Positions 26,039-26,653 of a stretch of 31,643 nt of DNA are shown piece by piece. The translations under genes were made by a program, and so were the position numbers. The stretch comes from a virus: IMG/VR virus record IMGVR_UViG_3300024346_000314, positions 1 through 31,643 of that record, one strand, 5' to 3'. How positions within the stretch are numbered: position 1 is the stretch's first letter; each line of letters opens with the position of its first letter. The notes under the pieces were generated by a model. It was not told the origin of the DNA. It did not search any database and worked only from the letters and a program-made list of their open reading frames with translations.

Positions 26039-26653
26039 ATGTCAAAACAATCAAAACAACTGAGTTACAGAGAATTATCAGAAAACTTTATTCGTACCAA
26101 ATCAGAAAAGGACTACAATGCTCTTTATGCACGAGTAAAACCAGGACTTAAAAACTATATTGCAAATGTGGTTAAGGATTCTGAAGCTACTGATGATATT
26201 CTTACTAATACTCTGACAAAAATGTGGACTAAGATCGATCAATATGATCCATCATACCAAATTACAACTTGGTTATATCGCATCGCATTTAACGAGTGTT
26301 TAGGTTGGATTCGTCAACGTAACTCTAAATATAGTATTGATACTATGAAAGAGTATGGTATTGAAATCTCTGAACAATTTGGTCATACTTCTGCTAAAGA
26401 CTTATTGATCGAATCAGAATTCAAGACAGAAGCCGATTGGTTATTAGAAGATCAAGATCTTACAAATCGTTATGAATTGGCTTTGAACAACATTAATGAT
26501 TTGAAACCAATGTATAAAGAAATCATCGAAGATCGATTACTTAATGACATGAAATATGAAGATATTGCTGAAAAGTACAATCTTCCATTACAGACTATTA
26601 AAAACCGAATTCGTCGAGGTAAGTCTATCATTGCAGAAAATATGGGATATTAA
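26039..26653 (+). CDS. ECF-type sigma factor (candidate phage late sigma)
   Basis: The 204-residue protein has sigma-70 region 2 at about 25-97: a helix with EATDDILTNTLTKMWTKIDQ and the DNA-melting segment SYQITTWLYRIAFNECLGWI. A linker follows, then region 4 at about 145-200 with a helix-turn-helix (YEDIAEKYNLPLQTIKNRIR). The absence of regions 1 and 3 and the length mark it as ECF-like. Phage sigma factors of this kind redirect host RNA polymerase, and T4 gp55 does so for late genes at TATAAATA. Here GATAWATAA motifs stand before virion genes, so this is the best candidate for their recognition. Its own promoter is of the host-like class, as expected for an earlier gene. No anti-sigma gene is adjacent. 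Confidence 0.88.
   Translation: MSKQSKQLSYRELSENFIRTKSEKDYNALYARVKPGLKNYIANVVKDSEATDDILTNTLTKMWTKIDQYDPSYQITTWLYRIAFNECLGWIRQRNSKYSIDTMKEYGIEISEQFGHTSAKDLLIESEFKTEADWLLEDQDLTNRYELALNNINDLKPMYKEIIEDRLLNDMKYEDIAEKYNLPLQTIKNRIRRGKSIIAENMGY

Follow-up and report, generated by a model that had tools for sequence, protein, structure and literature searches.

Bacillus phage SPO1 controls its genes through successive phage sigma factors, each of which turns on the next class, and the B. subtilis sigma factor SigW uses CGTA as its -10 element. In phage T4, early genes are transcribed with the host sigma factor, middle genes with MotA/AsiA and late genes with gp55/gp33/gp45 (PMC6024815, PMC2988020). 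In T4-type jumbo phages a minimal sigma factor, an RpoD-like sigma factor and gp33 have been reported (PMC7824862); the words ECF and gp55 are absent from that survey, in which we found no promoter assigned to a sigma factor. Searching openly available journal papers, we found no description of a relay in which an ECF sigma factor serves the middle step.

Here, we have analysed a 31.6-kb virus fragment (the window) together with six long relatives, which are contigs of 150-212 kb. We propose with good confidence a three-step relay on host RNA polymerase, in which a host sigma factor would serve the early genes, an ECF sigma factor the middle genes and gp55 the late genes. The likeness to T4 lies in the use of host RNA polymerase, in the presence of three promoter classes and a gp55 homologue, in the gp55 gene belonging to the middle class, and in a single-box late promoter before virion genes. 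In contrast to T4, the middle class is apparently under a phage ECF sigma factor acting on TGAAAC promoters, and MotA and AsiA were not detected by searches in which the T4 control was positive; the late box is GATATATAA, and neither a T4-type clamp nor gp33 was detected here. The proposed relay of phage sigma factors also recalls the SPO1-type cascade in its scheme, but SPO1 is not T4-type.

The ECF sigma factor

The sigma factor gene and the promoter in front of it lie in the last fifth of the window:

26039..26653, + strand: ECF-type sigma factor (region 2 and region 4), proposed middle-gene sigma factor; Pfam, phrog_1740 and SigW/RpoE matches
25972..26015, + strand: class E promoter of the sigma factor gene (ATTTTTTTATGTCAAATATTTGTTGTATATTAGC); score 51.5; class E before the ECF gene in 7/7 sources

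That an ECF-type sigma factor shares this stretch with the late-type boxes described below, as a sequence-only reading had claimed, was confirmed by Pfam matches to both regions (Sigma70_r2, 2e-10; Sigma70_r4_2, 6e-8). The protein of 204 aa is short and has regions 2 and 4, as is characteristic of the ECF group (group IV). It matches phrog_1740 and, in both profile and fold comparison, SigW/RpoE, with B. subtilis SigW as the nearest solved chain (1e-12). Its relatives in IMG/VR number 80, at 53-99% identity, and host ECF relatives in genome contigs show only 22-30% identity to the phage protein.

The 12-nt -35 DNA in the SigW crystal contains the bound GAAAC, and five contact residues have been named, T168, K170, T171, H174 and R175 (PMC6713349). 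SigW T168, K170 and R175 correspond to T186, K188 and R193 of the window protein, which are invariant across its family; at the two other contacts, T171 is replaced by Asn and H174 by Arg. The two systems thus have in common a GAAAC -35 and the T, K and R contacts of the recognition helix. They differ in that the phage gene is under an early promoter and in that the -10 element is RTATAA here, not CGTA.

The single late-type box and the gp55 homologue

All eight boxes claimed by the sequence-only reading were found where it had placed them. The seven that can be assigned to class L, or resemble it, are as follows:

4992..5000, + strand: L box before the head-closure-like gene 5029-6978; score 18.6; phrog_679; L in 5/7 orthologues
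6998..7006, + strand: L box before the putative terminase small subunit gene 7025-7690; L in 7/7 orthologues; TerS match weak
9534..9542, + strand: L box before the tail sheath gene 9572-12400; L in 7/7 orthologues
12409..12417, + strand: L box before the tail tube gene 12436-12993; L in 6/7 orthologues
13045..13052, + strand: L-like box GATAAATA, 36 nt before a likely internal ATG (13081) of its ORF; below the PWM threshold
14554..14562, + strand: L-like box, scoring under the PWM threshold, 14 nt ahead of a short ORF
23911..23919, + strand: L box GATAAATAA before the gene at 23947; L in 5/7 orthologues

The window has 13 copies of GATAWATA, whereas shuffled controls have 6.3 +/- 2.3 and none of them (0/100) reaches 13. 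Twelve of the 13 copies are on the + strand and 7/13 are intergenic, in a window of which 89% is coding; additional copies at 4211, 9246 and 11858 are all within genes. The boxes at 4992, 6998, 9534, 12409 and 23911 stand 26-38 nt ahead of their genes. For most of these five the claim of a position before virion genes holds; the box at 26697 is ambiguous between classes M and L.

The long relatives point the same way. Upstream of their genes GATATATAA is found 68 times against 1.2 expected, and no 8-mer of these regions is more over-represented than GATATATA (110 vs 3.1 expected). Since this 8-mer is so over-represented and the box lies mostly 25-45 nt before starts, the box with its conserved placement is a real promoter-like element. 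The likeness to the T4 late promoter is borne out in part: L is a single box before virion genes, with no conserved upstream element and no -35 in the six long relatives, but its sequence is GATATATAA and not the T4-type TATAAATA, for which the upstream regions showed no enrichment.

Which protein reads this box is a separate question. That the ECF protein does so in place of gp55, as had been suggested, would agree with the co-occurrence of ECF gene and box in the same phages and with a window that holds no gp55 gene. However, every long relative carries a gp55 homologue, and the idea of a substitute was rejected once these were found. The gene is out of sight in the window because it sits about 7-8 kb past the left edge, as seen in G001 (72190-72573), a 165-kb relative with the same gene order as the window and a sigma factor 99% identical to its own. 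Moreover, L has no -35 although the ECF protein has region 4 (domain 4), a distinct ECF-type bipartite promoter class exists (class M, below), and phage PAU has AAC-type promoters but no GATATATAA. It is very unlikely that the ECF protein reads the late box; box and ECF sigma gene are both real but are probably not partners.

Homologues of gp55 were detected in all six long relatives and LR756500, in 8/13 further contigs, and in Lak, PAU, pT24 and MA9V-2; those of MaF61 and PTm1 were weak in a first search and clear by phmmer, and the seven named Bacteroidota T4-like phages have homologues of varying strength. The homologues match phrog_234 (E 1e-11 to 1e-13) and can be aligned to T4 gp55, and the best PDB match of a predicted model, of moderate confidence, is T4 gp55 in 7d7c. 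The protein is short and has no domain 4, and we propose it as the reader of class L because a promoter without a -35 suits a sigma factor without domain 4. Its C-terminus is an invariant hydrophobic GMFNI-type tail after a variable linker; it may be the counterpart of the clamp-binding end of T4 gp55, a hydrophobic tail after a linker (PMC2988020). The T4-type sliding clamp gp45 (phrog_223) was not detected in the relatives, with a positive T4 control, and a divergent clamp is possible. Clamp coupling of the late step is at most a possibility, given that no T4-type clamp or gp33 was found.

The ORFs at 3749-3907, 3938-4366 and 4350-5000 adjoin the exonuclease gene in a gene order as in T4 rnh-dsbA-33-59. 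As candidate counterparts of gp33/gp59 they were rejected, with no support from hhalign.

Classes E and M and the genes behind them

In the six long relatives, a second pattern, ATTTTTTTATGTCA...GTATATTAG, defines class E, whose PWM gives 97 matches vs 0 in simulations, an in-sample count, as the matrix was built from the same six genomes. Besides the sigma factor gene, class E precedes the following genes of the window:

2423..2466, + strand: E promoter before the 5'-3' exonuclease gene 2478-3749; E in 6/7 orthologues
20701..20744, + strand: E promoter before the gene at 20753; score 36.3
25533..25576, + strand: E promoter before the gene at 25591; score 41.8

Class E may be said to resemble Bacteroidota primary-sigma promoters, of the form TTTG/TANNTTTG (PMC6847099), but it fits that pattern loosely, and the textbook TTTG-N19-21-TANNTTTG showed no enrichment in the relatives. 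We attribute E to the host sigma factor because E-type motifs are abundant in MA9V-2 (19 sense vs 0 antisense), a phage in which no ECF was detected. The same count, together with the likeness to the Bacteroidota promoter, speaks against a scheme in which the ECF protein reads E and regulates itself while another factor serves M. Such autoregulation would account for the 54 of 61 distinct ECF loci that have E upstream (none has M or L; the loci are related by descent and not independent), but we regard it as extremely unlikely.

After L and E were masked, a third class emerged in the six relatives as AAAC-N17-TATA dyads (45 vs 2.2 expected), and it was refined to TGAAAC-N16-RTATAA, class M, whose PWM gives 114 matches vs 0 in simulations, again in the genomes from which it was built. 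Classes L, E and M are all directional, lying on the sense strand. The window has these M sites and one gene that belongs to the class:

1400..1428, + strand: M promoter of the clamp-loader gene, TGAAACC ... GTATAA; -35 region ATTGAAACCTTT
1453..2409, + strand: gp44-like clamp loader, M-class gene; Gp44_lid 7e-12; phrog_168
18707..18734, + strand: M promoter (TGAAAC...GTATAA) before the gene at 18753; score 24.9; M in 4 orthologues
21144..21171, + strand: M promoter before the gene at 21177; score 18.8
23400..23427, + strand: M promoter for guanylate kinase (gene 23433-23906), spaced in the leaderless manner; M in 6/7 orthologues
26678..26705, + strand: M promoter including the box at 26697; ambiguous M/L, fits both classes
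26838..26865, + strand: M promoter before the tRNA array; score 18.2
28384..28412, + strand: M/L-ambiguous site within the tRNA array, GATATATA with TGAAAC upstream; box at 28405, not on the list of the earlier reading

Read as M, the box at 26697 is TGAAAC-N17-TATA, with the ATG 11 nt from the start of the -10. The tRNA array (26918-31496) comprises 20 tRNA genes and has M-type sites before and inside it.

Class M has an AAC-type -35 and a -10 at ECF spacing in a putative regulon, as expected of an ECF promoter, and ATTGAAACCTTT at the clamp-loader -35 is the same 12 nt as the SigW -35 crystal DNA of PMC6713349. We propose the ECF protein as the reader of M because a -35 should call for a sigma factor with domain 4, the phage's own such sigma factor being the ECF protein, and because its nearest solved relative, SigW, binds GAAAC.

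The genes behind the classes differ. L leads the genes for portal, prohead protease, capsid, sheath, tube, TerS, head closure and tail fibre; M leads those for SSB, a MazG-like protein, UvsX, helicase, clamp loader, guanylate kinase and gp55, and the same gene runs continue downstream into polymerase, primase and SbcCD genes; and behind E are the genes for the ECF protein and the exonuclease, along with many small accessory ones. The split between L-virion and M-replication genes is significant (Fisher p=0.0014). Upstream of the gp55 gene, M was found at all distinct loci (36/36) and neither E nor L at any, while random segments gave 7/800, in a test that leaves out the six training genomes of the PWM and whose loci are related by descent.

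NrdB, the ribonucleotide reductase small subunit (G001:57402-58382), is an exception to the split, being behind L in 4/6 relatives. At G001:72120-72190 and at most gp55 loci, the loop of a terminator hairpin contains the -35 GGAAAC, and the -10 follows right after the T-tract, so that the M promoter is nested in a terminator; the conservation of GGAAAC at these loci may be due in part to the terminator. The DNA polymerase of G001 is split into genes 55932-57344 and 61566-62774, several kb apart, and the clamp loader at G004:~153500-154425 is present as three ORFs, broken or misassembled.

In the relatives G001-G007 (e.g. loci L085, L087 and L091), L in the form GATATATA-N4-ATG stands exactly 12 nt from the start codon in 25 sites; no L box is at 0-11 nt and few are at 13-24 nt. 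M in the form RTATAA-N5-ATG stands 11 nt from the ATG in 15 sites. Such spacing is what a -10 element should have, and it suggests leaderless mRNAs that would start at the A of the ATG.

The proposed relay and its range among other phages

What we observe directly are three motif classes, their placement, gene classes and directionality, the presence of both sigma factors in the long relatives, and the co-occurrence across phages. We argue that these would be joined as follows. The host sigma factor would read class E and turn on early genes, among them the ECF sigma gene. The ECF protein would then take host polymerase to class M, where region 4 would contact the -35 and region 2 the -10. This would turn on the gp55 gene together with genes of replication, recombination and nucleotides. 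Finally, the gp55 homologue, lacking domain 4, would read the GATATATAA box and turn on the virion genes. The ECF protein would hold the slot that MotA/AsiA have in T4, with gp55 kept. The order, with ECF early, gp55 middle and virion genes late, is proposed because E stands before the ECF gene, M before gp55 and L before virion genes; both this timing and the pairing of sigma factors with motifs we infer from sequence.

The M class could instead be read by a host ECF, with the phage protein doing something else, such as reprogramming host genes. Bacteroidota do have many ECFs, some distantly similar to the phage protein, and the pairing of the phage ECF with M is by inference. The comparison with other phages, in which the outcomes for pT24 and LR745206 were predicted ahead of examination, bears on this. 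AAC-type bipartite promoters were strong in LR756500, Lak-B5, PAU and MaF61, all with a related sigma factor, and moderate in LR745206 (11 vs 2), which also has one. In PTm1, pT24 and MA9V-2, where no ECF was detected, we found no class matching M, although MA9V-2 has 3 M-like matches. Against a host reader, phages with an ECF-like sigma factor have AAC-type promoters and three Bacteroidota phages without one have no matching class. Moreover, in MaF61, a cultured phage with a divergent ECF, the motif is altered to TGCAAC-N16-CATT and the gene set is similar, with the motif leading replication/gp55 genes in 6/8 cases and virion genes in 0/6. We consider a host ECF on class M to be unlikely, and the phage ECF remains our proposed reader.

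In Lak, the M-type motif stands before replication/gp55 genes in 5/5 cases and before virion genes in 0/4. In the same test M was found at 0/9 of the LR756500 replication set within a 100-nt window and at 1/5 in PAU. Among crAss-like phages with an ECF, cr50 has GAAC-N16-CGTT in 4-5 regions only, a weak signal, and cr109 showed no AAC-type class, even with TAG read as a residue. We think it likely that Bacteroidota T4-like phages use an ECF sigma factor instead of MotA/AsiA for the middle step, and that ECF and promoter drift together while a core of replication genes and gp55 is kept in the regulon.

For the uncultured phages of Bacteroidota, a large group to which Lak megaphages and huge phages belong, the analysis proposes a role for ECF sigma factors. 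It also provides a full predicted early/middle/late map for genomes without a known transcription programme. It suggests that in the T4 plan the middle step is replaceable while the gp55 late step is kept. MaF61 and PAU are cultured phages in which the scheme is testable. The sigma factor of PAU, which is larger and matches in region 4 alone, makes this phage a looser ECF case. In PAU (JQ362498), TATACATA precedes 43 genes; the virion genes tested all have it (7/7), and it is probably the phage's own late box.
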